Virus record (IMG/VR): IMGVR_UViG_3300043409_000116
Coordinates: 1 to 53,267 of that record
Strand: one strand, 5' to 3'
DNA length: 53,267 bases
Source: a virus
Made by a program: the position numbers and the translations under genes. The notes below the pieces were generated by a model. That model searched no databases, was not told the DNA's origin, and saw only the letters and a list, made by a program, of their open reading frames with translations. This document shows, piece after piece, positions 1 through 39,730 of the stretch. How positions within the stretch are numbered: the first letter of the stretch is position 1; each line of letters begins with the position of its first letter.

Positions 1-77
1 GCGAGTTGGTGCATCGTTCTGTCAACATGGTTTTGAAACGCTCCGTTTTTGCTCAAGGCGAAACGCAACAAATTTAA
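1..77 (+). CDS. C-terminal remnant of small late protein (partial)
   Basis: The sequence opens inside a reading frame that stops at 75-77. The visible 24 complete codons are identical to the end of the complete 62-residue gene at 38353-38541, so this is the same gene cut by the sequence boundary. Its function is unknown. In the complete copy it follows the adaptor gene, which suggests a small head-tail protein. The downstream Shine-Dalgarno (AAGGA, 76-80) overlaps the stop codon. Confidence 0.85.
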   Translation, partial: ELVHRSVNMVLKRSVFAQGETQQI

Positions 78-127
78 GGAACTGCTATGGCAAACACTCA
101 GGCGATGTGTACCAGCTTCAAGGGTGA
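1..127. repeat. 127-bp exact direct repeat, first copy
   Basis: The first 127 bases are identical, base for base, to 38465-38591. The first mismatch is base 128 (G here, A at 38592). The repeat spans the 3' end of one gene and the first codons of the next, so it is not a separate element. Inference: an exact repeat of this length at the start of the sequence is what an assembly graph built with 127-mers leaves behind. Confidence 0.95.
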
Positions 128-542
128 GCTGCTGGTGGGACACCACAACTTTGGTACTGGCGTAACCCGCGGGTCAACCGCTGCCGACACCTTCAAGGCT
201 GCGCTGTACCTGGCCTCTGCCACCGTCAACGCAAGCACCACGGCATTCAGCGCAACCAATGAGGTATCAGGCACTGGCTACACATCAGGCGGCGTCACTG
301 TGACCTTTGGCACTGCGCCAAGCACCAGCGGTACAACTGCCTTTGTCACGCCAAGCGCCAGCATTACCTACACGACTGTCACGTTGTCCACAGCGTTTGA
401 TGCGGTCCTGATTTACAACAGCACCCAGAGCAACAAGGCAGTCAGCGTCCACACCTTTGGCAGTCAGACAGTCACTGCCGGGACATTCACGCTGACTATG
501 CCAACTAATGATGCAAGCACTGGCCTGATCAGGCTGGCGTAA
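87..542 (+). CDS. Small probable virion structural protein (copy A)
   Basis: A 151-residue protein rich in Thr, Ser, Ala and Gly with alternating polar and hydrophobic residues, suggesting an all-beta fold. No signal peptide or membrane segment. It sits between the head-tail adaptor/small late gene and the fibre genes, so a head-decoration or tail-tip role is the likeliest inference; I cannot name a family. An AAGGA lies six bases before the ATG. Copy B (38551-39006) differs at only four residues, all in the middle third, showing strong constraint. Confidence 0.8.
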   Translation: MANTQAMCTSFKGELLVGHHNFGTGVTRGSTAADTFKAALYLASATVNASTTAFSATNEVSGTGYTSGGVTVTFGTAPSTSGTTAFVTPSASITYTTVTLSTAFDAVLIYNSTQSNKAVSVHTFGSQTVTAGTFTLTMPTNDASTGLIRLA

Positions 543-555
543 GCAAGGGGGCAGC

Positions 556-1245
556 ATGGCTGCTTATGGGTCAGGCTATTACGGGCTTGGTGTTTATGGC
601 ATAGGCAATGTTGTCATCAGCGGCAACACGGCTACTGGTGATGTTGGTACGCTGCTGGCAGACAGGTCCATCCAGGAGGATGGGACGATTGCCACAGGCA
701 ATGTTGGCACAGTAACGCTCACGTTGTCGGTTGGCATCACAGGCAACCAGGCTACAGGTGCGGTTGACTCGGTAACGCCATCAGCAGCCCTGGCTGTGAC
801 AGGCAATGCGGCAACCCTGGCGGTTGGCAGTGTCAATCACAGCAAGGCGGTTGACGTTAACGGCAACCAGGCTGCTGGTGCGGTTGGTTCTGTTGGTGTT
901 GGTGTGAGCATTTCTGGCAACACGGCAACGGGTGCTGTGCAGACGATTGCCTTTGAAACTTCTAAGGCCATCACGGGTAATGCGGCAACGGGCAATGTTG
1001 GCAGTTTTGGTCACAGCAAGACGATTGAGATAAGCGGGAATGCAGCCACTGGTTCGGTGGGCATTGTCTTTGGATTTGGCTGGGGCGCTATTCCCAACAC
1101 GGCAGAGAGTTACACGGCAATTAGCGACACTGCAGAGACTTGGACCTCGATTGGCAACACGGCAGAAACGTACACGGCGATAAGCGATACAGCAGAGACT
1201 TGGACTGCAATCGCAGATAATTCTGAAACTTGGACACCTGTTTGA
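556..1245 (+). CDS. Repeat-containing probable fibre or head-surface protein (copy A)
   Basis: 229 residues in two parts. Residues ~17-175 carry about seven irregular units of the type G-N-x-A-T-G-x-V-G separated by short Ser/Val-rich spacers, a pattern expected of a beta-solenoid. Residues 179-228 are five consecutive ten-residue repeats containing T-A-E-(S/T)-(Y/W)-T. The N-terminal 100 residues and the C-terminal repeat match copy B (39020-39721), but the repeats between residues ~110 and 165 are reshuffled there. A surface or receptor-contact role is inferred from the repeats and from the position just before the fibre gene. Confidence 0.75.
   Translation: MAAYGSGYYGLGVYGIGNVVISGNTATGDVGTLLADRSIQEDGTIATGNVGTVTLTLSVGITGNQATGAVDSVTPSAALAVTGNAATLAVGSVNHSKAVDVNGNQAAGAVGSVGVGVSISGNTATGAVQTIAFETSKAITGNAATGNVGSFGHSKTIEISGNAATGSVGIVFGFGWGAIPNTAESYTAISDTAETWTSIGNTAETYTAISDTAETWTAIADNSETWTPV
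1090..1239 (+). repeat. Five tandem 30-bp coding repeats
   Basis: Five in-frame 30-base units encode ten-residue repeats in which aromatic Tyr and Trp alternate at position 8. The unit length is a multiple of three, so copy number can change without a frameshift. Copy B holds the same five units at 39566-39715. Confidence 0.85.
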
Positions 1246-1257
1246 TAGGAGCGAAAA

Positions 1258-3357
1258 ATGGCAGATACCACAACAACCAACCTACTGCTGACTAAGCCAG
1301 AGGTTGGAGCCAGCACCGACACCTGGGGTACAAAGGTCAACACTGACCTGGACCTGGTAGACGCACTGTTTGCAGCGGCTGGCACAGGCACCAGCGTGGG
1401 ACTCAATGTCGGCTCTGGCAAGACGTTAACTCTTGCGGGTACAGTCAAGTTTGCTGGTTCTACGTCAGGCACTACGACAGTTGCTGCAACTGCTGTGGCT
1501 GGGACTACGGTGCTTACACTGCCTGCTGCAACTGACACTTTGGTGGGAAAGGCAACGACTGACACGTTGACCAATAAGACGCTGACGGGTGCGGCAATGA
1601 ACGGCACTGTCGGCGCTACGACCCCGGCTGCTGGTTCATTCACCACCCTCGGCGCATCGTCCACGGCTACGCTCAACACGCTTGTCTCAAGCGGTGCAAC
1701 GCTGACAGGCGGGTCAATCAACGGCATGACTGTCGGCGCTACGACTGCGACTACGGGTGCGTTTACTACGGTGACTGCAACTGGGCGGTCAGGCGTAACT
1801 ATGTCGGGACAGACTTCTGCCGTAAGTTTTGGTCAGGTAAGCAGTGACCTAACATATGGATTGATATCATTTAATGGAGCATTTGCGGCAACTACATTAA
1901 CGGGTATCTGGGGAGGTGCAGGTAGTCCAGATATGATAATTGGCGTCCCTACTGGCGGCAGCATATACAGCAGAGTAGCTAATAGCACTGTCACTGTTCT
2001 TTCCTCCACCGGCCTAGCAGTAACCGGGACGCTGAGTGCTACGGGAAATATCTCAGCTACAGCAGGAGGATTTTTTAGCACTAAGGCATCTGGAAATTCT
2101 CCAATACTCGATTTAACGCAAACAGGTGTTTACACTTGGGATTTGATTAATACAGCAACGACTGGATTATTTTCAATTAGGGGAAATACCACTCCATTCT
2201 TATCTATAGCTAGTGCAACAGGTGCAGTAACCATACCCCAAACCCTCGGCGTAACAGGTGTCTCCACGCTCACCGCCGGTGCAATTGTGCAAGGCTTGAC
2301 CGTGGGCCTTGGTGCTGGTGCTGTGTCTACCAACACTGCGGTGGGTGTGAGTGCTTTGGCGGGTGCAAATACAGGTGTTGGTAGAAATACAAGCGTAGGG
2401 TATCAGGCGGGGTATAACAACACTACGGGCAATAAAAATACATTTTTAGGGATGTATACAGGTTTTGAAGTAAGCACTGGCGCAGAAAATACATTTGTTG
2501 GATATGCCACTGGGCCAAATGGAATTGCATCTACAGGTTCATATAACACTGGTTTGGGTTCGCAAGCCCTCTACTCCAACACCTCAGCATCATACAACAC
2601 CGCATTAGGTTATCAAGCTGGGTACACGAATGTCACGGGGGCATTTAATGTTTTTATTGGGGGGTTAGCAGGACAGGGCAGCACAGGTAGCGGGAATACA
2701 TTTATTGGCGGTGGAAATAATAGCGCAGGATACCCCGCTGGCTTTTTTATGACGGGCAACAATAGTGTTGTTATTGGTGGATATGGCGGCAACCAAGATA
2801 GCCTAGACATTCGCACATCAAACAACTACGTTGTGTTAGCTACTGGTAATGGTGATAGACAGATTACGATGGCTGAAGGGCAGACCCTTGCGCTTGACTC
2901 AGCAGTACCAAACTCCGGCACAGGCATCACCTTCCCCGCAACTCAATTCGCATCGTCCAACGCCAACACGCTGGATGACTATGAGGAGGGGATTTGGACG
3001 CCTAGTGTTGGCGGTACGGCTACATACAATAATCAAGCAGGTCACTATACAAAAATAGGTAATTTGGTTAAGTTAAGGTTTGTTATTCATATAAATGTAT
3101 TAGGTACTGGGAGTACAACAACCATTACTGGAGCGCCGTTTACACCAGCCAGTACTGACCCAACTATTGTGGGCGGCGTAGTTTGCTATGCCTCAGGTCT
3201 TGCTGTTGCCGCTTTATCTTTAGGTGTTTATATTGGCCCCAGTACTCCTATCAATTTTTTTACTAGAGATACAAGTAGCACGGGGGCAACAACTCAAAAT
3301 CCCGCAGTTATTGGTAATGGATTTCAGGCTTATTGCGAAATAAGTTATCTAGTTTAA
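1258..3357 (+). CDS. Tail fibre, long form (copy A)
   Basis: 699 residues. Residues 1-60 are an N-terminal tail-attachment-like segment ([10 protein letters not shown], then D-T-W-G and N-V-G-S-G-K) shared with copy B. The middle is Thr/Gly/Ala-rich. Residues ~350-500 hold repeats of the type N-T-x-x-G-x-x-A/S-G, like the left-handed beta-roll heads of trimeric adhesins. The last ~130 residues begin with [11 protein letters not shown] and form a tip domain whose first part matches copy B. The protein should trimerise and contact the host surface. Copy B (39731-40819) has only 362 residues, so the shaft was exchanged. Bases 1830-2880 are AT-richer than the flanks, a sign of transfer. Confidence 0.85.
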
Positions 3358-3407
3358 TTAACTCGGCCATATTAGCCAAGTCGGACACTTAACTTAAAAG
3401 GAAAATC

Positions 3408-3716
3408 ATGTCACTCACCAAAACCACAGCCGTTGACCAAATCACCGTCACTGAGAACGGCATCGTTCTCTATCGTGAGGCTACAAAGATTCTTGAAAAT
3501 GATGTTGAGATTAGCAAGCAATACCATCGTTCAAGCCTCATACCGGGTCAAGACCTGACAGGCGTCCCTGCTAATGTTGTTGGTTATTGCAACATGGCAT
3601 GGACAGCGGATGTGGTTGCGGCGTATCAGGCGGTACAGGCGGCTGCGGCTGCTGAACGTGAAGCACAACGCTTGGCGGCTGAAGCGGCACAACAATCAGC
3701 GGAGCAACCAGCATGA
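3408..3716 (+). CDS. Small protein after the fibre, possible fibre-linked (copy A)
   Basis: 102 residues. The N-terminal ~65 residues (T-K-T-T-A-V-D-Q-I-T-V-T-E-N-G, then Q-Y-H-R) match copy B (40834-41082, 82 aa). The last 30 residues are an Ala/Glu/Gln helix, longer here than in B. Similar small proteins often follow fibre genes and may be assembly factors or tip proteins; I do not recognise a named family. AAAAGGAAAA precedes the ATG. Its TGA overlaps the ATG of the next small gene. Confidence 0.75.
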   Translation: MSLTKTTAVDQITVTENGIVLYREATKILENDVEISKQYHRSSLIPGQDLTGVPANVVGYCNMAWTADVVAAYQAVQAAAAAEREAQRLAAEAAQQSAEQPA

Positions 3717-3868
3717 CCCTAGAACTCGACATCAACGAAATCAACTTTGTCCTCCAGACGCTTGGGCAGTTACCCTCCTCCAGCGGCGTGTGGCCTTTGA
3801 TTGTCAAAATCAAAGAGCAGGCCGAAGCGCAAGTGCAAAAAGCCAATCTGCTTGAGGAACTGAGATGA
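3713..3868 (+). CDS. 51-residue protein found only in copy A
   Basis: The ATG at 3713 overlaps the preceding stop (ATGA), and its own TGA (3866-3868) overlaps the next ATG at 3865, so it is translationally coupled on both sides. The product is acidic and helical with an E-Q-A-E-A-Q-V-Q-K coiled-coil-like stretch near residues 35-45 and no membrane segment. Function unknown. Copy B has no counterpart: there the upstream frame runs straight into the membrane-protein gene, so this is a clean indel between the two relatives. Confidence 0.7.
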   Translation: MTLELDINEINFVLQTLGQLPSSSGVWPLIVKIKEQAEAQVQKANLLEELR

Positions 3869-4032
3869 GCCTTGAAGCACAATTCAGCAGCCATGAGGCC
3901 GTCTGCGCCGAGAGATATGAGCAAATCAACGCACGGCTAAAGCGGCTTGAGGGCATCCTCATCAAGACTGCCGGGGTGCTTATCTTTAGTATGTCTGCCA
4001 TCGTCTATGCCAGCCTCACTTTCCATCGTTGA
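3865..4032 (+). CDS. Small single-pass membrane protein, lysis region (copy A)
   Basis: 55 residues. Residues 1-30 are charged and helical (R-Y-E-Q-I-N-A-R-L-K-R-L-E). Residues ~32-51 form one hydrophobic helix, followed by a short tail. ATG start in an ATGA overlap with the previous gene. It lies four genes upstream of the holin, so a role in lysis timing or as an inner-membrane spanin-like partner is possible but unproven. Copy B (41079-41246) begins with GTG instead of ATG. Confidence 0.7.
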   Translation: MSLEAQFSSHEAVCAERYEQINARLKRLEGILIKTAGVLIFSMSAIVYASLTFHR

Positions 4033-4034
4033 TC

Positions 4035-4181
4035 GTGGACTTCTTCGACGTTTTGTCAAAGGCATGGCCTATATTGCTGGCGATCATCACCTTGATAATC
4101 GTCCTGGCAAAACTCGACTTGCGGGTTGCAGTCCTGGAGGAGAAGGTCAAGCAGCTATTTGAAATGTGGAACAAGAAATGA
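4035..4181 (+). CDS. Small membrane protein, GTG start (copy A)
   Basis: 48 residues: a short amphipathic N-terminus, a strong transmembrane helix at ~11-25 rich in Ile and Leu, then a coiled-coil tail (R-V-A-V-L-E-E-K-V-K-Q-L-F) ending in Lys. The start is GTG, two bases after the previous stop; copy B uses ATG at the same codon (41249). The one-helix-plus-coil shape resembles small accessory holin or spanin-type phage proteins. The stop overlaps the next ATG (ATGA). Confidence 0.7.
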   Translation: MDFFDVLSKAWPILLAIITLIIVLAKLDLRVAVLEEKVKQLFEMWNKK

Positions 4182-4657
4182 TTGACCCGCTAACCGCCTT
4201 TGCAGTGGCGCAGGGTGCAATCAAAGGAGTGCAAGCCGCCATCAAGATGGGCAAGGACATCAACGCTATCTCAGGCGATCTGATGAAGTTCTTCGAGGCC
4301 AAGGATGTAGTTGCAAAGGAAGCGGTAAAAAAGAAACCCAAGGGGTTTGGACAGAGCGATACGGCAGTGGCATTTGAAACGGTGATGCAGCTCAAGCAGT
4401 TGCAGGACGCAGAGGCAGAATTGAAACAGATGCTGATATGGTCAGGTAACGACGATGTGTGGAACGCCATCATGCTGGAGCGCAACCGCATGGTGACAGA
4501 GAGAAAGAAGGCAGAGGCTGAAGCAGCTCACGCCAAGGCGGTGAGAGCAGAAGAGATCAGCGACATTGTTAACTTTGGTTTATGGTCCGCGCTGGTGTCA
4601 TCCATAGTGGGCCTGGTGGCCTGGTTGACTTGGCAGATTGTTGGAGATGGAAGATGA
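4178..4657 (+). CDS. C-tail-anchored phage protein (copy A)
   Basis: 159 residues from the ATG at 4178, chosen over an in-frame GTG at 4166 because ATGA overlap is the rule in this operon. The N-terminal ~35 residues are Ala/Gly-rich (T-A-F-A-V-A-Q-G-A-I-K-G-V). A Lys-rich middle and a long Glu/Ala/Lys helix follow, then a hydrophobic helix near the C-terminus (~129-154). It is probably anchored in the inner membrane with the bulk in the cytoplasm. Proteins of this shape recur in lysis regions of environmental podophages without assigned function. Copy B differs at a single residue (Glu to Ala in the Lys-rich stretch). Confidence 0.75.
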   Translation: MIDPLTAFAVAQGAIKGVQAAIKMGKDINAISGDLMKFFEAKDVVAKEAVKKKPKGFGQSDTAVAFETVMQLKQLQDAEAELKQMLIWSGNDDVWNAIMLERNRMVTERKKAEAEAAHAKAVRAEEISDIVNFGLWSALVSSIVGLVAWLTWQIVGDGR

Positions 4658-4956
4658 ATGACGACAAAGGCGCATTGATTGAGAAGGCTACGTTTGCGAT
4701 ACTGCCGCTGCTGTTTAGCTGCGTTGTGTATCTGATGAGCGCCCTGTCCAACTTGAGCCATGAAGTGACTATCCTCAACAGCAAAATCAGTCTGGTGGTG
4801 ACCAGCGACAACAAGCAAGCCAGCAACAGTGGGGCTGAGTTGGCAAGGGAAAAGCTGCGACAGGACTTGGAAAAAGAGATTCAGAAAAACCGCGATGACA
4901 TCATGCACAACCGACAAGAGATTGCTGTGATCAACACCAAGCTGGAGAAGAAATAA
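4654..4956 (+). CDS. Membrane-anchored coiled-coil protein, candidate i-spanin or holin partner (copy A)
   Basis: 100 residues from ATG 4654 (ATGA overlap with the previous stop). Residues ~14-33 are hydrophobic and the remainder is a highly charged coiled coil ending K-L-E-K-K. One N-terminal transmembrane helix with a long periplasmic coil is the layout of inner-membrane spanins, but no matching lipoprotein partner is visible, so the assignment is tentative. The amino-acid sequence is identical in copy B (41868-42170) although the DNA differs at synonymous sites, showing strong purifying selection. Confidence 0.75.
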   Translation: MNDDKGALIEKATFAILPLLFSCVVYLMSALSNLSHEVTILNSKISLVVTSDNKQASNSGAELAREKLRQDLEKEIQKNRDDIMHNRQEIAVINTKLEKK

Positions 4957-5441
4957 TGGATTGGCTCAAACAAATCGCACCAACGATTGCCACCGCATTA
5001 GGCGGTCCCCTGGCTGGTATGGCGGTAAGCGCCATCTCCAAGGCCATTGGTGTTGACCCCGAAAAGGTTGGTGACCTGATCTCCAGCAACAAGTTAAGCG
5101 CAGACCAGATTGCCCAGGTCAAACTCGCTGAGATTGAACTGCAAAAGCAAGCGCAGGAGCTGGGCCTCAACTTTGAGAAGCTGGAGGTGGAGGACAGGAA
5201 ATCCGCAAGGGATATGCAGTCAGCCACCCGGTCCATGATGCCGCCAATCCTGGCTGCTGCTGTGACCCTGGGATTCTTCAGCATCATGGTGATGATGTTC
5301 TTCCAGAAGATTGACTCCAACAACCCCGCTATCCTGATGATGCTGGGCAGTCTTGGCACAGCTTGGACCGGGATAATTGCCTATTATTTTGGCTCCAGTG
5401 CCGGGAGCCAGGCCAAGACAGATTTACTCTCAAGGAAATAA
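4956..5441 (+). CDS. Holin, 3TM gene-transfer-agent type (copy A)
   Basis: 161 residues matching the layout of the GTA_holin_3TM family: a hydrophobic Gly/Ala-rich N-terminal helix (~8-31), a charged central helix with D-R-K-S-A-R-D at 80-86, then two strong transmembrane segments (~96-116 and ~124-146) and a short basic tail. Such holins open the inner membrane at a set time so that endolysin reaches the cell wall. The ATG shares one base with the previous stop codon. The endolysin lies two small genes downstream. Copy B (42170-42655) carries a few conservative changes. Confidence 0.8.
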   Translation: MDWLKQIAPTIATALGGPLAGMAVSAISKAIGVDPEKVGDLISSNKLSADQIAQVKLAEIELQKQAQELGLNFEKLEVEDRKSARDMQSATRSMMPPILAAAVTLGFFSIMVMMFFQKIDSNNPAILMMLGSLGTAWTGIIAYYFGSSAGSQAKTDLLSRK

Positions 5442-5443
5442 CT

Positions 5444-5590
5444 ATGAAACCAGGACTCTACGCAAACATCAACGCCAAGCAGGAGCGCATCAAAGCTGGC
5501 TCTAAGGAGAAGATGAACAAGGTCGGCAGCAAGGCAGCGCCAAGCGCCAAAGACTTTAAGCAAGCCGCCAAGACTGCAAAGAAGAAATGA
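5444..5590 (+). CDS. Small basic phage protein, K-P-G-L-Y-A-N-I type (copy A)
   Basis: 48 residues, very Lys-rich, with the motif K-P-G-L-Y-A-N-I-N-A-K at the N-terminus followed by G-S-K-E-K-M and K-A-A-P-S-A-K. The same signature occurs in many environmental phages as an uncharacterised small protein. The start at 5444 is chosen for the well-placed AAGGAA at 5432-5437; a longer in-frame extension lacks one. The charge suggests DNA or nucleoprotein contact. The ATG of the next gene overlaps its stop. Confidence 0.75.
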   Translation: MKPGLYANINAKQERIKAGSKEKMNKVGSKAAPSAKDFKQAAKTAKKK

Positions 5591-5874
5591 AGACTCCAGC
5601 CTGGCAGCGCAAGGAAGGTCAAAACCCCAAGGGTGGGTTAAATGCTGCTGGACGCGCAAGCCTCAAGGCGGCTGGGCAAAACATCAAGCCACCCGTCAAG
5701 TCTGGTGACAACCCTCGACGCGCCAGTTTCCTGGCACGAATGGGCAATATGCCTGGCCCCGAGCGCAAGGACGGTGAACCCACCCGGCTGCTGCTGAGTC
5801 TCAATGCCTGGGGTGCCAGCAGCAAGGCAGACGCCAAGGCGAAGGCCAAGGCAATCTCAGCGAGGAACAAATGA
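5587..5874 (+). CDS. Small basic protein, W-Q-R-K-E-G-x-N-P-K-G-G-L type (copy A)
   Basis: 95 residues with A-W-Q-R-K-E-G-Q-N-P-K-G-G-L-N near the N-terminus, R-R-A-S-F-L-A-R-M-G in the middle and L-N-A-W-G-A towards the end. This signature belongs to a conserved phage domain of unknown function (possibly DUF6321; named from memory). Strongly basic and without a membrane segment. It lies between holin and endolysin in a tightly coupled operon (ATGA at both ends). Its role could be structural or DNA-binding; nothing here decides it. Confidence 0.75.
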   Translation: MKTPAWQRKEGQNPKGGLNAAGRASLKAAGQNIKPPVKSGDNPRRASFLARMGNMPGPERKDGEPTRLLLSLNAWGASSKADAKAKAKAISARNK

Positions 5875-6299
5875 CACCGCACTTTTCCCTCGATGAGTTG
5901 ACGCACACTGACCACCGGAAGCTGGACAACACACCCAATGCACAAGAGTTGGCAAACCTGCAGCGCCTGGCTGAGTTTCTGGAGACAGTCAAGACAGCAC
6001 TTGGCGGCAAGCCTGTGATGATCAACTCAGCCTTTCGCTCCAAGGCCGTGAATGACGCTGTAGGCTCCAAGGACAGCAGTCAGCATAGGCAAGGCTTGGC
6101 TGCTGACTTCAAGGTGCCTGGGATGATTCCTGATGCTGTGGTAAGGACGATCATTGCGGCTAACCTGCCGTTTGATCAGATCATCAGAGAATTCTCAGAC
6201 CCAGTGGCTGGTGGTGGCTGGACGCACATCAGCATTGCTGACAAGCCAAGAGGCCAAAGGCTTATCATTGACAAACTAGGCACCCGCCTTTTTGTCTGA
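5871..6299 (+). CDS. Endolysin, M15 family peptidase (copy A)
   Basis: 142 residues of the Peptidase_M15 type, zinc enzymes that cut peptide cross-links of peptidoglycan. Zinc-site residues are visible: S-Q-H-R-Q-G-L-A-A-D at 70-79 gives His72 and Asp79, and W-T-H at 117-119 gives His119. S-A-F-R-S (53-57) is the substrate-binding segment found upstream of the His motif. There is no signal peptide, so it depends on the holin for export. ATGA overlap with the preceding gene. Copy B (43085-43513) keeps all catalytic residues with six substitutions. Confidence 0.9.
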   Translation: MTPHFSLDELTHTDHRKLDNTPNAQELANLQRLAEFLETVKTALGGKPVMINSAFRSKAVNDAVGSKDSSQHRQGLAADFKVPGMIPDAVVRTIIAANLPFDQIIREFSDPVAGGGWTHISIADKPRGQRLIIDKLGTRLFV

Positions 6300-6308
6300 A
6301 AGAACACC

Positions 6309-7787
6309 ATGTTGATGCCCTTAAAGATACCAGCAGGCGTGTACCGCAACGGCACCGAGTACCAGAGCATGGGCAGGTGGTTCAACGCCAACCTGGTGAG
6401 ATGGTTTGAGGGTACGCTCAGACCAGTTGGCGGCTGGCGCAAGAGGTCATCAAGCCAGGTGACAGGCAAGTGCCGGGGAATCATCAACTGGCGGGATGAC
6501 AGTTCAGCGCGATGGATTGTTGCCGGGACAAACACCAAGTTGTTTGTGATGAACCAAACCGGGACACTGAAGGACATCACGCCAACAACCTTCACACCTG
6601 GCAATGCTGATGCCACCCTGCTAACGGGTTACGGCTACAACAACTATGGCAACTATGCTTATGGTGTAGCCAGGCCAGACACTGGAGCCATCATCAACGC
6701 TGCCACCTGGTCAATGGACACCTGGGGACAGTATTGGGTGGGTTGCTGCACCAGCGATGGGCAGTTGCTGGAGTGGCAGCTTGGATTCACAACACCCACG
6801 AAGGCAGTTGCCATTGTCAATGCACCCACAGGCTGCGCGGCGGTGATGACAACCTCTGAGCGTTTTGTGTTTGCTCTTGGTGCCAGCAATAACCCGAGGC
6901 TGGTGGCATGGAGTGACCAGGAGGACAACACCACCTGGACGCCAGCCGCCAACAACCAAGCAGGCAGCTTTGAGTTGACAACTGTCGGCTCAATCGTGGC
7001 GGGGAAGAGGGTGCGTGGCGTCAACCTCATATTCACTGACGTTGATGTCCACACCAGCAGCTACATTGGTCAGCCGTTCGTGTTCTCATTCGAGAAGGCT
7101 GGCTCTGGTTGCGGCTTGATTGGACCCCAGGCTGTAGCGGCAATCGACACTGCCGCCATCTGGATGAGCAGGTCTGGATTCTGGATTTACGATGGCTACG
7201 TCAAGCCACTGCCAAGCGACATTGGTGACTTCGTGTTCAGCAATATGAACTTTGAGCAGGCCAGCAAAGTCTACGCTGTCCACAACAGCAAGTTCGGTGA
7301 AATCTGGTGGTTCTACACCAGTGCAGCATCCACCGAGAATGACTCTTACTGCATCTACAACTACCGCGAGAATCACTGGAGTCTGGGAACATTGTCCAGG
7401 CTGGCTGGTGTTGACAAGGGCGTGTTCAACAGCCCATTGATGGTCAGCTCTGACGGGTTTATTTACGAGCATGAGGTTGGATTTGCGTATGACTCGCAGA
7501 CTATCTTCGCTGAGTCTGGTCCAGTGGAGATTGGCAATGGTGAGCAGATTATGAAGGTTCGGCAGGTGATACCTGACGAGTCTAACCTTGGTGATGTCAG
7601 CATCAGTTTCAGCAGCCGCCTCTATCCCACCGGGACAGAGACTAGCTTTGGACCCTTCACCAGTGCCAACCCGACAGATGCCAGGTTTAGTGGACGCCAG
7701 GTCAAGATGAAGGTGACAGCAGACAGCCTGACTGATTGGCGGGTGGGGGTGATGCGCTTGGATGCAGTGCCAGCCGGGAAGCGGTAA
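6309..7787 (+). CDS. Large tail or neck protein, probable beta-propeller (copy A)
   Basis: 492 residues, rich in Trp, Gly and Thr with recurring beta-strand patterns (for example W-I-V-A-G-T-N-T-K-L-F-V near residue 70 and F-W-I-Y-D-G-Y near 295). The opening P-L-K-I-P-A-G-V-Y-R-N-G-T-E-Y is a signature of conserved virion proteins in environmental podophages. No catalytic motif is apparent. Position after lysis genes and before probable internal virion proteins favours a tail-tube, neck-stabilising or tail-hub role. Copy B is the same length and nearly identical. Confidence 0.75.
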   Translation: MLMPLKIPAGVYRNGTEYQSMGRWFNANLVRWFEGTLRPVGGWRKRSSSQVTGKCRGIINWRDDSSARWIVAGTNTKLFVMNQTGTLKDITPTTFTPGNADATLLTGYGYNNYGNYAYGVARPDTGAIINAATWSMDTWGQYWVGCCTSDGQLLEWQLGFTTPTKAVAIVNAPTGCAAVMTTSERFVFALGASNNPRLVAWSDQEDNTTWTPAANNQAGSFELTTVGSIVAGKRVRGVNLIFTDVDVHTSSYIGQPFVFSFEKAGSGCGLIGPQAVAAIDTAAIWMSRSGFWIYDGYVKPLPSDIGDFVFSNMNFEQASKVYAVHNSKFGEIWWFYTSAASTENDSYCIYNYRENHWSLGTLSRLAGVDKGVFNSPLMVSSDGFIYEHEVGFAYDSQTIFAESGPVEIGNGEQIMKVRQVIPDESNLGDVSISFSSRLYPTGTETSFGPFTSANPTDARFSGRQVKMKVTADSLTDWRVGVMRLDAVPAGKR

Positions 7788-7993
7788 TGAAGGTTCCGAC
7801 TCCACCGCAAAACTACACGCCAGTGGCAGAGGCCCAGCGTAACTTCCTGCTGGAGTCTGCCGACAGGCAAAACCGAAAGATCAATGCGGACATTGAAATC
7901 AGCAACAGCAAGCTGATCTTGACCTCACCGAATGGGAGCAGGTTCTCTGTGGTGGTCAGCAACGCAGGGGCATTGTCGGCAACGGCGCTATGA
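7787..7993 (+). CDS. Small structural protein (copy A)
   Basis: 68 residues from the ATG at 7787, which overlaps the upstream TAA by one base. A Pro-rich opening (K-V-P-T-P-P-Q-N-Y-T-P) is followed by a charged helix and a beta-rich end with L-T-S-P-N-G-S-R-F. Found in the same place in both copies, so it is a real conserved gene. It probably accompanies the large neck/tail protein before it; no family recognised. Confidence 0.7.
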   Translation: MKVPTPPQNYTPVAEAQRNFLLESADRQNRKINADIEISNSKLILTSPNGSRFSVVVSNAGALSATAL

Positions 7994-8349
7994 CAGATAT
8001 TGAGAGATTGAGGCCAGAGATCGAAAAAGCCTTAAAATATTCTTTGAACACTCACACATTTGATGATGTCGCTGAGTTGGTCCAGCAAGCCAAGATGCAA
8101 CTCTGGCCTGGAAAGAGTTCGGTGATTGTGACGGAGATTGTTCTCCACCCACAACAGAAATGCCTAAACTACTTTTTAGCAGCAGGCGAGATGAACGAAT
8201 TAGCAATGATGACGCCAATGATCGAGTCCTGGGGCAAGGGACTTGGATGCACTCGCGTCACACTTGCTGGACGCAAGGGCTGGCAGCGAACATTCCTGGC
8301 GAAGACGGGTTACACACCACAGTGGTGGATTATGAGCAAGGAGCTATAA
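7990..8349 (+). CDS. GNAT-like small protein in tail region (copy A)
   Basis: 119 residues. The pattern W-G-K-G-L-G-C followed by V-T-L-A-G-R-K-G-W and a closing aromatic segment resembles the C-terminal half of the GNAT acyltransferase fold, which recurs in phage structural operons. Whether it binds acetyl-CoA cannot be told: no clear Q/R-x-x-G-x-G/A loop is present. Starts within the previous stop (ATGA). Copy B has three changes around residues 69-73. Confidence 0.65.
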   Translation: MTDIERLRPEIEKALKYSLNTHTFDDVAELVQQAKMQLWPGKSSVIVTEIVLHPQQKCLNYFLAAGEMNELAMMTPMIESWGKGLGCTRVTLAGRKGWQRTFLAKTGYTPQWWIMSKEL

Positions 8350-8350
8350 C

Positions 8351-9649
8351 ATGGCCTATACAGCAGATCAAATTGCAGAAGCAATTCGAGTATCCAAAGA
8401 GCAGGGTTTCAATGAAGCTGACATTCTCAAAGGACTTGCCAGTTATGGCGTCACGGCACAACAGGCGGCTGCTGCTTTAGCACCACCAGTAAGCTACACG
8501 CCTGCTCAAGTTACTCAGGCAATTGCAAGCTCCAGGGCAGCAGGGTTCAGCGATGCTGACATTGCCACTGGACTTGAGCGTTACCGGGTGCCTGTGGCAC
8601 AAACTGCTGGTGCCTTTACGCCAGCAGCAACAACCTATACGCCAGCTCAAGTTACTCAGGCCATTGAAACCTCTAGGGCGCAAGGGTTCAGTGATGCTGA
8701 CATTGGCACAGGACTGCAGCGTTACCTGCCAACTCCTGCCGCTGTCACCACGGCTCTGACGGCTAACCCAAGGCCAGCTACAACCCAAACACCGTTTGCT
8801 CCAATTGTTAGGCCAACTGCGCCAAGGCCGCCAACCTACACCCAGGCAACACCTGCATCGTTCACGCAAACAGCCATTGCCAATACGCCTTACCAAACTG
8901 TCTACACGCCTTCGACAATGCAGCAGGCAACTGACGCGCAGATTCAAGCGGCAATGCAAACCTCAAACCCATATCAATCGCTGATGTCCCTGACGCCACA
9001 GCGCACGATGCCAATGAGCTATGCAGGACCAGCAGGCGTCACACCAGCCAACACCAACCTTGGTGGCTTTGACGCCAGCATCTACAACCCGGCGGCGGCT
9101 ACTGGGCTGCTCACAACACCTAGCGCTGGTGTAGGCGGTGCTGGTGGTGTACCAGGCGGTGCTGAACGTGGAGCTGGCAATACTGCTGATGGTACTGGTC
9201 AAACTGCATATGGAATGCTTGGCAATTTGGCTGGAGAGGCTAATCGAAGAGGGTTTACTGGCCTCGGCGGTTTCTTAGCGTCTGGAATACCAGTTGGCGC
9301 AGAGTACAACAGAAGAAATTTAGACACAGGACTTATGGAAAAAGGAACTGTGACATTAGCTGATTTAGCTGCTCTTAGCAGCTATGGTGGTCAACCCGAA
9401 GGTTTTACAGGCGCAGATACTTTAGGTGGATTTGGACCAGCTACTAGCGGTGGAATGGCTAAAGGCGGTATGGTCAACATGAAACCCCAAATGCATAACC
9501 CACCTGGTCCTGATGATGGCTATGCTGCCCTGGACAACGGCGAGTACGTCATTCGCAAGAGTGCAGTCAAGAAGTACGGCGCAAACATTTTCGAGCAAAT
9601 CAACGCAGGACGAATCCCAGCCCAGCGTCTGAAATCTTTGTTGGAGTAA
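8351..9649 (+). CDS. Probable virion protein with helical repeats at the N-terminus (copy A)
   Basis: 432 residues. Three repeats of ~33 residues begin near residues 3, 49 and 96, each with Y-T-(A/P)-x-Q-(I/V)-x-x-A-I, a central G-F-(N/S)-(E/D)-A-D-I and G-L-x-x-Y. A Pro/Thr/Gln-rich linker follows. The last ~60 residues contain P-G-P-D-D-G-Y-A-A-L-D-N-G-E and I-R-K-S-A-V-K-K-Y-G and are nearly identical in copy B, as is N-T-N-L-G-G-F further upstream. Copy B replaces the N-terminal half by a different repeat family. Likely an internal or tail-associated virion protein with a fixed docking end and an exchangeable front. Confidence 0.7.
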   Translation: MAYTADQIAEAIRVSKEQGFNEADILKGLASYGVTAQQAAAALAPPVSYTPAQVTQAIASSRAAGFSDADIATGLERYRVPVAQTAGAFTPAATTYTPAQVTQAIETSRAQGFSDADIGTGLQRYLPTPAAVTTALTANPRPATTQTPFAPIVRPTAPRPPTYTQATPASFTQTAIANTPYQTVYTPSTMQQATDAQIQAAMQTSNPYQSLMSLTPQRTMPMSYAGPAGVTPANTNLGGFDASIYNPAAATGLLTTPSAGVGGAGGVPGGAERGAGNTADGTGQTAYGMLGNLAGEANRRGFTGLGGFLASGIPVGAEYNRRNLDTGLMEKGTVTLADLAALSSYGGQPEGFTGADTLGGFGPATSGGMAKGGMVNMKPQMHNPPGPDDGYAALDNGEYVIRKSAVKKYGANIFEQINAGRIPAQRLKSLLE

Positions 9650-9653
9650 AAAC

Positions 9654-10805
9654 ATGAGCAAAAGCGGCGGCAGCCAAACCAGCACAACATCAATTGACCC
9701 GCAGATCAAGCAAGCCTACCTGCAGAACTTGCAGCAGGCGCAAGGCGTAGCCTCGGCATTGCCTGTCAGAGAGTTTGCGGGATTCAACCCCATTTACCGC
9801 GCTGGTGAGCAGCAACTGGTGAACACTGGCCTGGCTGGGCGTGGCATTGACACTACCAACATTGCAGCCGAGTACGCCAACCAGGCAGCGCAGTTCCAGC
9901 CGTACTACACGGGCAATGTCAATGCCGGGATGTCCAACCAGTTTGGTGCTGTCGGCTACACGCCAACTGATGTCACATCAGCTCAGGCCAAGATGAGCGA
10001 CATCAGCAACTACATGAACCCCTACACCAGCCAGGTGATCGGCGGCTATGACGCTGCAACCGGGAAATCCACTGGTGTCCTGGGTGACATTGAGGCCGCA
10101 CGGCAGGCGGCTGTGCAGCAGATGGGTGAGGCTGCAACCAGGGCCAAGGCGTATGGCGGCACACGCCAGGGGGTTGCAACAGCCGCCACCAACCAAGCCT
10201 ATGCTGATAAGGCAGCGCAGATGTCAGCGCAGCTCCGACAGCAAGGGTTTGACACCTCTGCCAACCTGATGCAGCAAGACCTAAATCGTGCCCAGCAAGC
10301 TGCTCTGCAGACAGCGCAGCAAGGCACTGGTGCCATGCAGTTTGGCGCTGCTGCAACCAACCAGGCCATGATGCAGAACGCAGCAGCGCAGAACGAGATG
10401 GCACGCTACAACGCATCAATTGCCCAGCAGAGCGATCTTGCCAACCAGCAAGCCTACGCTGCCGCCAATGCACAGCGGCTGGCCGCTGCAGGCCAGCTAG
10501 GTGCCTTTGGGCAGCAGCAACAGAACCTTGGTCTTGGCGGCGCACAGGCCGTGATGGGCGCAGGACAAGCACAGCAGCAATTTACTCAGCAGCAGCTGGA
10601 TGCACTGCGCGGGATTGGCGTTGAGAAATTGGGCATTGCTCAGTCTGGATTGTCAGCATCACTGCCCAACCTTGGTCAGACTGCTACACAACCAACCTAC
10701 AAGAACCCACTGGCGTCAGCGGCTGGCGGTGCTGGATACGGTTACCAATTTGGTGGACCTACTGGGGCGGCTATTGGCGCGTTCTTGGGTTTGCTTAGCA
10801 GCTAA
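9654..10805 (+). CDS. Gln/Ala-rich probable internal virion protein (copy A)
   Basis: 383 residues, mostly long Ala/Gln helices (for example A-A-R-Q-A-A-V-Q-Q-M-G-E and repeated Q-Q-x-L blocks around residues 180-310), ending in a Gly-rich hydrophobic tail. Proteins of this composition in podophages are often ejected with DNA or line the tail channel; that role is inferred from composition and place. Copy B (391 aa) matches throughout except the last ~35 residues, which differ. Confidence 0.7.
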   Translation: MSKSGGSQTSTTSIDPQIKQAYLQNLQQAQGVASALPVREFAGFNPIYRAGEQQLVNTGLAGRGIDTTNIAAEYANQAAQFQPYYTGNVNAGMSNQFGAVGYTPTDVTSAQAKMSDISNYMNPYTSQVIGGYDAATGKSTGVLGDIEAARQAAVQQMGEAATRAKAYGGTRQGVATAATNQAYADKAAQMSAQLRQQGFDTSANLMQQDLNRAQQAALQTAQQGTGAMQFGAAATNQAMMQNAAAQNEMARYNASIAQQSDLANQQAYAAANAQRLAAAGQLGAFGQQQQNLGLGGAQAVMGAGQAQQQFTQQQLDALRGIGVEKLGIAQSGLSASLPNLGQTATQPTYKNPLASAAGGAGYGYQFGGPTGAAIGAFLGLLSS

Positions 10806-10818
10806 CGGAGAATCAATC

Positions 10819-12336
10819 ATGGCTGACTTTAATTTAGAAGGACTGCTGGGCAACGTCTTTGGCGGCGGTGGCGGTAACTACCTGGACGAGTACCTGACGG
10901 AAGATCAAAGGCGAATGATGCAGCGCAACGCAATGCTGGCAGCGTCTGCAGCCTTGCTCAAGGCTGGCGGGGAAAGCACCAGGCGCATAGGCATTGGCGA
11001 GGCACTGGGTGGAGCGTTTGAGGCAGGACAAGCCGGGTACGAGAAAGCGCAGACGGGTGCATTGACCCAGATGGCGCTGAAGCAGAAGTTGAAAGACGCA
11101 GAAACGGAAAGAGCAACCAAACTTGCGTTTAAAAACTTTTTAACCCAACAGGGTGGAGGGGCTGCGCCGCCAGCAGTTGACGCCGCGCCCCCCACGGTTA
11201 CTCAAACAAACCTAAATGCAACGGGGCCGCAAGTGCCTCCTAGCTTGGCAGCGCCAGCACCTAGCAGACAAACTAATCTTTCTCAGAACCAGCTTCAGTT
11301 GTTATCCATGATGGACATGAAAACAGCAATACCTGAGTTAATGAAATCCATGCAACAGCCTAAAACGGCTGGCGATCCATTTAGGGGCGCGGACGGGAAA
11401 ATTTACATCAGAACTGAATATGGTGGAGCTATCCCGTTCACTACAGGAATGGCACCCAAGCCCGTTGGGCAACCGCAAGCAGTGATGATGGACGGCAAGC
11501 CAACTTTAGTGCAAGGGTTTGACGATGGCTCAGAAAAAATACTTTCTGATCGACAGCCCTACGAAGCACTGTCATCAGATATACGGGCTGTAGAATATCT
11601 CAAAGGAGCGCCGCTTGGAGGAACAGGCCAAACAGGAATCCAACAGGTAGGCCAATATCGTCAACAAATTGCGCCGAGAACTGATGTCAGAGTAGGTGGC
11701 CCAATACTAGAGAATGCTGAACAAAAAGGCATGGGCGAATTCAACATAGAAACATTTAAAAACGTAAGCACTGCAGCGGGTTTAGCACAAAAGACTTTGC
11801 CGTCTTTGGATATTCAGTCTCAAATTCTTAACAAAGGATTTACAACTGGTTTTGGTACGGAAGTTCAAAAAGCAGGAGCATCAGTATTGGCTGCGCTAGG
11901 TGTTCCAGAGGCAAATAGATTTGCTACCGACGCGCAAACATTTTTGGCCGCTACTCAGCAAGCTGTGCTACAAAAACAGCTTGAGCAGAAAGGACCGCAA
12001 ACTGAGGCTGACTCTAGACGTGTCACGCAAACCGGCGCTCAGTTAGGCAATACGGTAGACGCCAACCGATTCCTTATTGATGTTGCTAGAGAGCAACTTA
12101 AACGCGATATCGAACGCAAGACATTTTTGGAAAGCTGGTGGAACACAAACAAAACGCTTCGGGGTGCTGATGATGCTTGGTACACAGGCGCTGGCGGTCA
12201 ATCGCTGTTTGATAGACCGGGGCTTAAAAAGTACGTTGCGTCAACAGCGGCAAATCAAATACCAACCGACGCTCCCGTATTGACGCCTGCTCAACAAGCA
12301 GAATTAGACAACCTCCGTAAAAGATTTAAGAGGTAA
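10819..12336 (+). CDS. Probable internal virion protein with conserved N-terminus (copy A)
   Basis: 505 residues from the ATG at 10819, preceded by CGGAG; a longer in-frame extension upstream overlaps the previous gene and is rejected. Residues 1-91 hold N-L-E-G-L-L-G-N-V-F-G-G-G-G-G-N-Y, A-S-A-A-L-L-K-A-G-G-E-S-T-R-R and Q-T-G-A-L-T-Q-M-A-L-K-Q-K-L, and match copy B at most positions. Beyond that the two copies share no evident similarity. The first part looks like a docking module with an Ala-rich helix; the remainder is helical and Gln-rich. A role in the virion or DNA ejection is inferred from position. Confidence 0.7.
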   Translation: MADFNLEGLLGNVFGGGGGNYLDEYLTEDQRRMMQRNAMLAASAALLKAGGESTRRIGIGEALGGAFEAGQAGYEKAQTGALTQMALKQKLKDAETERATKLAFKNFLTQQGGGAAPPAVDAAPPTVTQTNLNATGPQVPPSLAAPAPSRQTNLSQNQLQLLSMMDMKTAIPELMKSMQQPKTAGDPFRGADGKIYIRTEYGGAIPFTTGMAPKPVGQPQAVMMDGKPTLVQGFDDGSEKILSDRQPYEALSSDIRAVEYLKGAPLGGTGQTGIQQVGQYRQQIAPRTDVRVGGPILENAEQKGMGEFNIETFKNVSTAAGLAQKTLPSLDIQSQILNKGFTTGFGTEVQKAGASVLAALGVPEANRFATDAQTFLAATQQAVLQKQLEQKGPQTEADSRRVTQTGAQLGNTVDANRFLIDVAREQLKRDIERKTFLESWWNTNKTLRGADDAWYTGAGGQSLFDRPGLKKYVASTAANQIPTDAPVLTPAQQAELDNLRKRFKR

Positions 12337-12341
12337 AAATA

Positions 12342-14777
12342 ATGGACCCGCTTGAAGAACTAACGGCACTGCGGCGGCTGGCTGAATTGGAGGATATGGC
12401 CTCTGGGCAAACTGTTGCGCCAAGTCTTATGACGCAACTAGGCCGAGGCGCAGCGTCTTTGGCTGACGTTACCCTTGGCAGTTTGATCCCCGGCGCGGTG
12501 CAGTTTGGAGCCTATCCATTAGCCCGAATGGGCCGGTCGCCAGAAGAAGCACAAGCAGCGGCAAAAAGAATTGCCGCGCCTTTTGAACAGCCGTTTGGTA
12601 GGACGTTTGGTGTTACCGAGACTCCTCAGTACCAACAGGAAAGTAGCCGTCAACTGATGGATTTCATTGGGCAAAATTTCCAGAAGGGTGCTAAATTTAT
12701 TTCTGAAAAAACAGGCTTGCCCCAGGCAGACGTTGAAAACATGATCGGCAGCGCCACTATCGCGGCGCCTAAAGTTGCTCAAGCTGCACAGCCCTATGTT
12801 GCGCCGGTCATAGAGCAAGCCGCCATTGGCGCAAGACTACCCTTTGCCGACCGACTCCAAGCAAGAGCAGAAGCGGCTTCGGCAAGAGACTACGCCCGTG
12901 GCCCTCAAATTGATGCTGCAGCTAACGCGCAGCGGCTCAAACTTGCCATTGACCCGTCCAACATTGAGCCGTCAGTATCTTCTAGGCTTTACTCGGGTAT
13001 GGCCGGGCCTCGCGGTCCAGAAGCATTAGCGGCGGCTAACCGTCCTCGCGTAAATGAAATTGCGATAAATGAACTGGGCCTTGACCCGACTACGCCATTG
13101 ACCAGCACCGCCCCATACAAACAAGCGCGTGCTAACTTAGCTGGGCCGTACGAAGAAGTAAAAAAACTTTCTGTATTGACGCCTGATCAAACAACTATTG
13201 CAAACTTAAACGGCATTCGTAAAAACGAAAAAATAATTGGCGGCGAAGGCGTCCTCAAGAAAGTAAACAAATTAGTAGATGATGCCGTAGCTAAAACGCA
13301 ATCTGGATTGACAGGGGCTGAGTTATTAGAAAACGTGCGGACGCTGCGCGCCGACGCTAAAAAGATTTATAACAGCCCAAGTGCTACGCCAAAGCAAACG
13401 TCTGTTGCTGACGCAAATTTAGCCATAGCAACAGAATTAGAGACGATGATCGACTCTAATATTTCCAACCCTAAATTGTTGGGGGAATGGCGCGACGCCC
13501 GTCAAAAGATGGCGCGCACATATGCGTATGAGGGTGTGACTGACTTTAATACCGGCATGATAGACGTAGCTAAACTGGCGCGAATCACATCTAAAGACAA
13601 CGCGCTTACCGGGGATATCGCCGCGCTAGGCAAAATTGCTGGTAACTTCCCTGAGGCGTTTACAACTCAAGCAGCGTCAAAATTTTATGAGCTACCCCGG
13701 GCCACTAGGTCTGGTTTAGCTGGCGGCGCAGGCGCGTTGCTTGGCGCAAGCGTAGCCCCACTCCTTGACCTAACCGGCATAACTGGGTCTATTCTCGGCG
13801 GCGTGGGAGGCGGTTTGTTAGGTGAGTTCGGTGGGAAAATGGCCGCTAACCGCATGGCAAACCCCAACTACCAAGCTGGGCTAAAACTAAGCGACATGCG
13901 TATTCCGGTCAATCAAATGGCGGCAACGGTTGCGCCCATTCCACAGAGCCGCGCTGTTGTGCCGTACCAAGCCCCGGTTGAAGTGCTGCAGCCAGGTGAG
14001 GGTACTTACTTCCCAGATTTTGTCATGCGCCCAGGTGGCCCCGGCCCCCTTACTACTCCCGGCGTTGCGCCTGGGCCTGCCCAGCTAGGACTGTCTCAAG
14101 GCCCGGTCGGTGGTCAAATGGGCGCCCTGCGCATGGAGGACGCCCGTGCTAGAGATTTGAGTATGCAGCAGGGCGCACAAGCTGAACTCCAGCAGGCAGC
14201 GGCGGCGGCTGCAGCACGGCAACCCACAGGCATGGGCGCAGTGTTAGATTTTGACCCCATCACCGGCACGTACAAGGTCGGCGGGGCCGGTGTTAAGGGC
14301 GCGACACCAGAAATCTTCATGGAGAATTTAGGCAAGTCGTTAGCGACCGCCACTGAAAAAGTTGCTGCTGGAAAATTGTTTGACCTGACAGCGGCTGAAA
14401 AAGTAGCTTTTGACAAAACCAAGATAGACCTTGCTACCGCTGCGCCAGAACTTAAAAAGTTGACTAACAAAGACATTGCGTCAAAAATGATGGACCGGCA
14501 ATGGATTGAAGAGACAATTTTAAAAGCCCAACAAAAAGCGCAAGGGTATGATGACCTTGCCGTTCGCGGTGCTACCGATACAATTCGCCGCGAGGCTGCA
14601 AAAGAAAGAGAAAAAATGCAAGCCGGGCTAGACGCGCTAGAAGAGAAGTTGCGTCAAAGCAGGCCAGTGTCTGGCACTGGACAAGGCCCAAAAACTAGGG
14701 CGTTTAGGTCTAGTCAAATGTTGCCGCCAGAGATCACTAACGCGATGGACATGTTAAGCGGTTTACCGCGCCGATAA
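12342..14777 (+). CDS. Large probable virion protein (copy A-specific)
   Basis: 811 residues; the largest gene of this block. Ala-rich helical segments dominate. Residues ~458-500 are a Gly/Ala/Leu hydrophobic stretch (G-A-G-A-L-L-G-A-S and G-G-V-G-G-G-L-L-G) that could insert in a membrane, as expected of a DNA-ejection protein. No lysozyme or protease motif was seen. The equivalent slot in copy B (50371-52572) holds a 733-residue protein with the same general layout but no alignable sequence by eye. Confidence 0.65.
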   Translation: MDPLEELTALRRLAELEDMASGQTVAPSLMTQLGRGAASLADVTLGSLIPGAVQFGAYPLARMGRSPEEAQAAAKRIAAPFEQPFGRTFGVTETPQYQQESSRQLMDFIGQNFQKGAKFISEKTGLPQADVENMIGSATIAAPKVAQAAQPYVAPVIEQAAIGARLPFADRLQARAEAASARDYARGPQIDAAANAQRLKLAIDPSNIEPSVSSRLYSGMAGPRGPEALAAANRPRVNEIAINELGLDPTTPLTSTAPYKQARANLAGPYEEVKKLSVLTPDQTTIANLNGIRKNEKIIGGEGVLKKVNKLVDDAVAKTQSGLTGAELLENVRTLRADAKKIYNSPSATPKQTSVADANLAIATELETMIDSNISNPKLLGEWRDARQKMARTYAYEGVTDFNTGMIDVAKLARITSKDNALTGDIAALGKIAGNFPEAFTTQAASKFYELPRATRSGLAGGAGALLGASVAPLLDLTGITGSILGGVGGGLLGEFGGKMAANRMANPNYQAGLKLSDMRIPVNQMAATVAPIPQSRAVVPYQAPVEVLQPGEGTYFPDFVMRPGGPGPLTTPGVAPGPAQLGLSQGPVGGQMGALRMEDARARDLSMQQGAQAELQQAAAAAAARQPTGMGAVLDFDPITGTYKVGGAGVKGATPEIFMENLGKSLATATEKVAAGKLFDLTAAEKVAFDKTKIDLATAAPELKKLTNKDIASKMMDRQWIEETILKAQQKAQGYDDLAVRGATDTIRREAAKEREKMQAGLDALEEKLRQSRPVSGTGQGPKTRAFRSSQMLPPEITNAMDMLSGLPRR

Positions 14778-14794
14778 CTTTTGAAGGAACCACA

Positions 14795-15109
14795 ATGAGC
14801 AAACTCTCTCGGGACGACAACGGTCAGATCACAATCTTTGGCGCACTTGGCACCACCCAGGTGATGACGGTCACAGCCACCAGCGTGCAGTCCACGGCAG
14901 TGGCAACTGGCGTCACCATACTGCGCCTGGCGAATGGCTCTGCAGCGCACTGCCACTTTGCCATTGGCTCTAACCCTACCGCCAGCATCACAACCTCGCC
15001 AATGCTGCCAGCAAATGCCGTGGAGTACGTGGCCTGCGCCTCTGGTGACAAGGTGGCTGTCATTCGTGGCGCTACTGCCACCGATGTGTCAATCACGCAG
15101 ATTTCGTAG
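14795..15109 (+). CDS. Small beta-rich late protein, last gene of the late operon (copy A)
   Basis: 104 residues, no membrane segment. Thr/Val/Ala strands and the central R-L-A-N-G-S-A-A-H-C-H-F-A-I-G suggest a compact beta sandwich. The gene closes the rightward late operon and its 3' end overlaps the end of the convergent leftward gene by 21 bases (15089-15109). Copy B (52589-52903) is similar along its whole length although the gene before it is replaced, so it is not tied to that variable gene. Confidence 0.75.
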   Translation: MSKLSRDDNGQITIFGALGTTQVMTVTATSVQSTAVATGVTILRLANGSAAHCHFAIGSNPTASITTSPMLPANAVEYVACASGDKVAVIRGATATDVSITQIS

Positions 15110-15247
15110 CCGGTACGCCTCAATGGCGTCCTTGAGGTCGCCGCGCAGTTGCTCAAGCTGGTCCTGCTGCTGCTGGAGCCGCAGGTAAGCCTCAAGTGCG
15201 AACTTGTCCAGAGTCGCCCGGTCCCAAGTGCTAAAGGTAGGCGTCAT
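15089..15247 (-). CDS. Small leftward early protein
   Basis: 52 residues from the ATG at 15247, which overlaps the stop of the preceding gene (ATGA); an in-frame extension to 15319 is rejected because it would lie inside that gene. Charged helical protein with a Gln/Leu coiled coil (L-Q-Q-Q-Q-D-Q-L-E-Q-L). It is the last gene of the leftward early chain and runs 21 bases into the convergent late gene. Function unknown. In copy B the HTH gene instead abuts the late gene directly, and no counterpart is seen. Confidence 0.6.
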   Translation of the reverse strand: MTPTFSTWDRATLDKFALEAYLRLQQQQDQLEQLRGDLKDAIEAYRLRNLRD

Positions 15248-15471
15248 GGGTGTGGGCAATCCTCTGGCACAAACGCCAGGCAGTGGACACCAGCGTACTT
15301 GGTAGCGGTACGCACCCACCTGTCAATGTAAGTATCTGGCATCAAGGCCAGGCTGCGACTGATGGCTGATGGCTGGGCATTGAGCGCAAGAGCCAGCTCA
15401 CTGGCTGTCATGCCATCAGGCGCTGCAGCCAGGGCGTCCCTGATGCGTTTACTCATCACTGTGATTGTCAT
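15244..15471 (-). CDS. Small winged-helix or HTH DNA-binding protein (copy A)
   Basis: 75 residues from the ATG at 15471, preceded by a strong AGGAGG. The segment R-I-R-D-A-L-A-A-A-P-D-G-M-T-A-S-E-L-A and the following S-A-I-S-R-S-L fit a helix-turn-helix of the MarR or winged-helix sort, with T-K-Y-A-G-V as the wing strand. Its ATG overlaps the upstream stop. It could regulate early or late transcription, but no operator can be assigned to it. The homologue at 52900-53127 confirms both the gene and its start. Confidence 0.75.
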   Translation of the reverse strand: MTITVMSKRIRDALAAAPDGMTASELALALNAQPSAISRSLALMPDTYIDRWVRTATKYAGVHCLAFVPEDCPHP

Positions 15472-15956
15472 GCGTTGCGCCTCCTGAGTTGATTTGCTGC
15501 CCATGCAGCGCCTTGATCGAAAGTGTCTAAGGATGTTCCTTTACTATCCTTAACATACTCCCAATCCTTATCCGTCAGCCCCTGCCACGGGCGCTGTGCT
15601 GCAAAGTGGTCAGCCAACTCCCGCGCCCGGTGCTTGTTGATGCCCTCGCGGACTAGGGTAGCCACTATCATGTCACGCCACTGGGTTGGCTCTGGCTGTG
15701 CTACTGGCACTGGCAATGCCTTCGTATCCCCGCAGTCTTTGTAATGACACGCATCACCATCTTGACAGGGGCATCGCGGGTCTTTTCCGACGCATGGCTC
15801 GGCTTGCTGCTCCTGCTCTATCTCTTGCCCAAGCCGCGCCAATTCGTGCATAGCGTGTTCACGCTCCAGTGCTTCGCGCAAAATGGTAATGGCTTTGTTG
15901 GGTTTGCCGTATTGCAACGCCTCCAGCGCCTGCTGCATGGTTTCTCTGTTAGTCAT
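15468..15956 (-). CDS. Cys-rich early phage protein
   Basis: 162 residues from ATG 15956 (TGATG junction with the gene before). The N-terminus has an A-L-E-A-L-Q-Y-G-K-P helix signature. A Cys cluster near residues 56-75 (C-V-G-K-D-P-R-C-P-C-Q-D-G-D-A-C-H-Y-K) suggests metal binding. The C-terminal third contains P-W-Q-G-L-T-D-K-D-W, a short motif that ends many unrelated small phage proteins. Function unknown. The partial gene at 53124-53267 occupies the same position and carries the related W-V-G-L-T-E-E-D. Confidence 0.7.
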   Translation of the reverse strand: MTNRETMQQALEALQYGKPNKAITILREALEREHAMHELARLGQEIEQEQQAEPCVGKDPRCPCQDGDACHYKDCGDTKALPVPVAQPEPTQWRDMIVATLVREGINKHRARELADHFAAQRPWQGLTDKDWEYVKDSKGTSLDTFDQGAAWAANQLRRRNA

Positions 15957-35769: not shown

Positions 35770-35774
35770 TCAAA

Positions 35775-36737: not shown

Positions 36738-36744
36738 AAGGAGG

Positions 36745-36770
36745 GGTGGGCCAGGGCAACCTGGTCCACC
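36745..36770 (+). ncRNA. 11-bp hairpin with GCAA tetraloop after the capsid gene
   Basis: Bases 36745-36755 pair perfectly with 36760-36770 (one G-U in RNA), closing a GCAA loop, a GNRA tetraloop. The T-tract is missing, so it is not a clear terminator. It may protect the 3' end of capsid mRNA, partly stop transcription, or bring the AGGAGG at 36739-36744 nearer to the ATG at 36779. Confidence 0.6.
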
Positions 36771-36778
36771 TTAAAAAG

Positions 36779-37093
36779 ATGGAAACACGAATCTTTGACA
36801 GAAACGATGCCACAGGCATCACTAGGCTCTGGCACTACGACCCAGAGACTGACGAGGCGACTATTGAGACTCAGCAGGATGTCACCAATATTGTGGAAGA
36901 AAACAAAAATCTGTTCAACGCCACCGATAACAAGGCGAACTGGACAGGCGAGTGGCACTGGGTGGCAAAAATTCCACTGAACATCTACTACGAGCTGCAG
37001 GCCAGCGGCAAGATCACAGATCAAGCCTACATGAAACGCTGGCTTAATGACCCCAACAACCGATTCTTCAGAACAAGGCCAGGAAAAGTATGA
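36779..37093 (+). CDS. Small conserved protein after the capsid gene
   Basis: 104 residues from the ATG at 36779. An upstream GTG (36746) lies inside the hairpin and is rejected. Near the start: T-G-I-T-R-L-W-H-Y-D-P-E-T-D, then T-Q-Q-D-V-T-N-I-V-E-E-N-K. This family is recurrent between capsid and adaptor genes in environmental podophages and has no known function. Its C-terminal half contains an R-W-L-N-D-P-N-N-R-F-F-R-T segment. Confidence 0.75.
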   Translation: METRIFDRNDATGITRLWHYDPETDEATIETQQDVTNIVEENKNLFNATDNKANWTGEWHWVAKIPLNIYYELQASGKITDQAYMKRWLNDPNNRFFRTRPGKV

Positions 37094-38349: not shown

Positions 38350-38352
38350 TCA

Positions 38353-39006: not shown

Positions 39007-39019
39007 GCAAGGGGGCAGC

Positions 39020-39721: not shown

Positions 39722-39730
39722 GAGCTAAAA

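Follow-up and report, generated by a model that had tools for sequence, protein, structure and literature searches.

Is the 127-base exact repeat that opens this viral record a feature of a phage genome, or a product of its assembly? The record (53,267 bases; hereafter the window, meaning the whole stretch of DNA that was analysed) encodes a terminase, portal, major head protein, family A DNA polymerase and helicase, and no tRNA was found in it. A megablast search with the window against 50,697 phage records gave no match. In IMG/VR, 57 loci encode a relative of the window's major head protein, many of them at >90% identity. The head protein gene of several relatives, namely G021 (L073:11977-12225 and 12681-12909), L055, L038, L040 and L046, contains one or two group I introns (Rfam RF00028, 76-92 bits), inserted after the equivalents of window positions ~36109 and ~36511; no group I intron interrupts the head gene of the window itself (35775-36737).

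The repeat begins at the first base of the contig

Self-comparison of the window bore out the original prediction that bases 1-127 equal bases 38465-38591, since the match contained zero mismatches and base 128 (G) differed from base 38592 (A). No other exact match between distant parts of the window is as long, the runners-up measuring 113, 89, 89 and 80 bases. An exact run of 127 was seen at just one of the 1148 window positions having a run of at least 31 bases to a distant copy, and that position is base 1. The first passage of the 127 bases (1-127, plus strand) forms the physical start of the contig; the second (38465-38591, plus strand) lies one turn, or 38,464 bases, further on, and is left by the other branch. 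A repeat that begins at a contig end and has the length of a usual maximal k is what an overlap at a branch node of a de Bruijn graph looks like.

That 127 is a usual maximal k, as had been claimed in the original prediction, agrees with the COBRA paper (PMC10914622), where the metaSPAdes runs listed go up to k = 127, a record of general practice rather than of this record's metadata. According to the same source, metaSPAdes and MEGAHIT contigs that are broken at graph repeats retain end sequences of length maxK (PMC10914622). Like the contig-end overlaps used by COBRA, the window's repeat is an exact match at a contig end, has the length of the largest k and stands at a branch between near-identical populations; it differs from them (PMC10914622) in that it joins the contig's own start to its own interior, as would happen if the path went round a circle and left on another strain's branch. 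No partner contig was matched in IMG/VR when either the first 127 bases or a stretch of 127 bases close to, but not at, the contig end was used for an exact scan; both scans may omit records near the window's own.

Two diverged copies of the tail/lysis module

Both passages lead into the same tail/lysis module. Copy A (1-15480, plus strand), recognised by its ORFs and assigned to a putative strain A, is homologous to 38465-53136, with main blocks at 79-94% DNA identity. Copy B (38465-53267, plus strand), recognised by its homology to copy A and assigned to a putative second strain, is cut by the contig end. Bases 1-1424 match 38465-39897 at 93.5% DNA identity, and collinear blocks pair 3866-8355 with 41080-45568 (89.8%), 9458-11088 with 47652-49306 (85.2%) and 15254-15480 with 52910-53136 (79%). 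One short block, at 72%, falls below the range of the main blocks. The protein identities between the copies extend from 99% down to 24%, and some genes are replaced or strongly altered. Such genes (24-54% protein identity) occupy 8351-9649 versus 45564-47843 and 12342-14777 versus 50371-52572, with neighbours at up to 97-99%. As read from these alignments, there is strong mosaicism within the tail module between the two strain alleles. A 759-aa gene of copy B with a Pfam DUF4214 match contains several internal short repeats (45870-46748), and its 432-aa counterpart in copy A shows one such pair.

When the last 131 bases of the window (53137-53267) were aligned with copy A as DNA, the score was no better than that of shuffles. 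In translation, on the minus strand, they retain homology to the part of A just past 15480 (tblastx piece QRSWVGLTEEDIPAINQS against QRPWQGLTDKDWEYVKDS), and this homology extends to the contig's final bases (QRSWVGLTEED versus QRPWQGLTDKD). Since copy B is collinear with A in translation to the last bases of the contig, the "duplicate" is bounded on the right by nothing more than the end of the contig.

The ORFs are intact in both copies, and both copies stand on one contig, which is what would be seen in a true duplication, that is, in a single phage genome of at least 53 kb with two diverged tail modules flanking the replication and head genes. A true duplication, however, leaves unexplained why a copy starts at base 1 of the contig and why the match is exactly 127 bases long.

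Gene content per genome turn

Between the two copies lies the single-copy part (15481-38464), which encodes the helicase, family A DNA polymerase, a primase-like protein, terminase, portal and major head protein, markers that are present once per turn in relatives. Of the tail, helicase, polymerase, terminase, portal and head markers, those that can be recognised in relatives are found there once in every 34-39 kb. G021 (36,146 bases), the closest of the long relatives, begins at window-equivalent position 5418 and goes round to 4214 by way of the tail, helicase, polymerase, terminase and head genes, so that it spans almost one full turn, and each marker occurs in it once. It is collinear straight through the junction at 38465, matching window 36512-40375 at 92.2%. 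The ends of the relatives' contigs are scattered over the map, as expected if the genomes assemble as circles, whether they are circularly permuted or have collapsed terminal repeats. That the relatives hold one module per 34-39 kb turn counts against a true duplication in the window, and an old duplication is contradicted by it.

The same signature in related records

For comparison, 14 long related IMG/VR phage records were assembled from fetched stretches and each was compared with itself. A contig-end self-match of exactly 127 bases, with the first mismatch at base 128, was found in G001 (3300007735_000683; 36,708 bases, distance 34,820), G015 (3300042375_000012; 35,239 bases, distance 34,952) and G022 (3300025732_000083; 43,033 bases, distance 39,661). 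As in the window, diverged homologous sequence follows base 127 in all three. The four 127-mers come from different genes and their sequences are unrelated. Were the repeat biological, its sequence or its place would be kept; as only the length is kept across the four records, they have no biological element in common. This recurrence is likewise left unexplained by a true duplication. In G014 and G017 the match at the other contig end is 126 bases long. Within the set, 8 distinct contig ends had an exact 127-base match to another place, compared with 34 of 20,000 random internal starts.

Two further records over-run their genomes. G007 (3300011335_000256; 55,456 bases) has 9,576 identical bases beyond one turn of 34,441 and then diverges, and G019 (3300034068_000046) over-runs by 2.8 kb at 97% before it diverges. 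The contigs G001, G007, G015, G019 and G022 are thus like the window in making one 34-40 kb turn followed by a diverged second passage, and the exact 127-base overlap is common to the window, G001, G015 and G022. The second-turn run of the window (14.8 kb) is longer than those of G001, G015, G019 and G022, whereas G007 over-runs by ~21 kb, of which the first 9.6 kb are identical. The G007 record (L062-L064) passes ~1.6 times round a 34.4-kb circle, and its length is not the length of a genome.

One record, G016 (L065-L067; 52,042 bases), was checked as a possible true relative of >50 kb. Over its first 34,969 bases it follows the G015 phage for one turn, at 99.6-99.9%, and the remainder (34969-52042) is tail-like and then consists of unmatched DNA of higher G+C with a 1784-aa ORF without a Pfam match. 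Because one G015 turn is followed by an exit into tail-like and unmatched DNA, G016 is probably one more contig that is over-run or chimeric.

Copies A and B are not sisters in two of four genes

The relationship of the two copies was assessed with maximum-likelihood trees for four genes and the AU test of A+B as one clade. The A+B clade was rejected for gene 6309, a 492-aa structural gene (p-AU 0.017), and for gene 4956 (p-AU 0.008); for two shorter genes, g87 (p 0.15) and g5871 (p 0.44), the AU test gave no rejection. The distance between A and B is about that of either copy to single-copy alleles from other samples. Paralogues would be sister to each other or would both be present in relatives; the relatives have one copy per turn, and sisterhood was rejected for two of the four genes. 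On the evidence of these trees, A and B are strain alleles, whose closest relatives lie elsewhere for two of the four genes.

Since the A+B clade was rejected for two genes, a duplication inside the window's lineage is unlikely. Taken with the evidence given above, we consider a true duplication very improbable, and would give equally little weight to a real phage of ~53 kb or longer that has two diverged whole tail/lysis modules and is able to switch or mix them.

A real molecule made of two related prophages lying side by side, or of a concatemer formed by two co-infecting phages, would also place the single-copy genes between two alleles, and in principle a replicating concatemer of mixed origin can be imagined. 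However, no host DNA was recognised in the window, the search for tRNAs in it was negative, and a non-exhaustive look noticed no integrase; the exact length of 127 and its recurrence would also go unexplained. Such a molecule is hardly to be expected here.

The least credible explanation, which we all but dismiss, is a biological direct terminal repeat of 127 bp in a linear phage genome of T7-like style: short end repeats are known in some phage genomes, where they measure one to a few hundred bases, but here the second copy is internal, at 38465, with 14.7 kb of diverged homologous sequence after it, the contig end carries no exact repeat where a terminal repeat would place the same sequence at both physical ends, and the comparison across records refutes it, as 127-mers that differ in sequence and gene mark no fixed terminus.

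Discussion

From the exact length of 127, the return of this signature in related records, the single tail module in each turn of the relatives and the non-sister position of A and B in two genes we conclude, with little doubt, that the record is in this respect an assembly artefact: a phage genome of ~38.5 kb is traversed once and, at a node of k=127, is continued by ~14.8 kb from a second strain. Much the same had been proposed in the original prediction, by which the contig starts at a branch node in a strain-mixed graph and passes it again after one genome length; the recurrence, the single tail module per turn in relatives and the trees of two of the four genes support it. Its further claim, that the repeat is neither a biological direct terminal repeat nor proof of a larger genome, is supported by the unrelated 127-mers in related records and by the single-module relatives on a circular 34-39 kb map.

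The repeat would correspond to one vertex in an assembly graph of the de Bruijn type with k = 127, both the assembler and k being inferred. The sample would have contained two strains of a single phage, each with a genome of ~38 kb that is assembled as a circle. They would share at least 127 bases before 38592 and then diverge, and the shared stretch may reach upstream of 38465. The contig would start with the edge that leaves the vertex along strain A, so that its first 127 bases would be the vertex itself and only the last 127 bases of the shared stretch would be visible there. The path would then run 38,464 bases round the circle, re-enter the vertex and exit into strain B until no further extension was possible. 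The single-copy part (15481-38464) may belong to strain A, to strain B or to a mixture, for which reason the ~38.46-kb circle may not close exactly.

The 127-base repeat is a technical artefact of an ordinary kind and not a biological one. With this reading the size of the phage genome is corrected from 53 kb to ~38 kb, the tail genes that seemed "duplicated" become strain alleles, and the contig is unsuitable for reading copy number or gene content. Such records can be tested for cheaply, by looking for a contig end that matches the same contig exactly over maxK bases one turn off and then diverges; among these related phages the test flags several more over-run viral records, listed with lengths greater than one turn.
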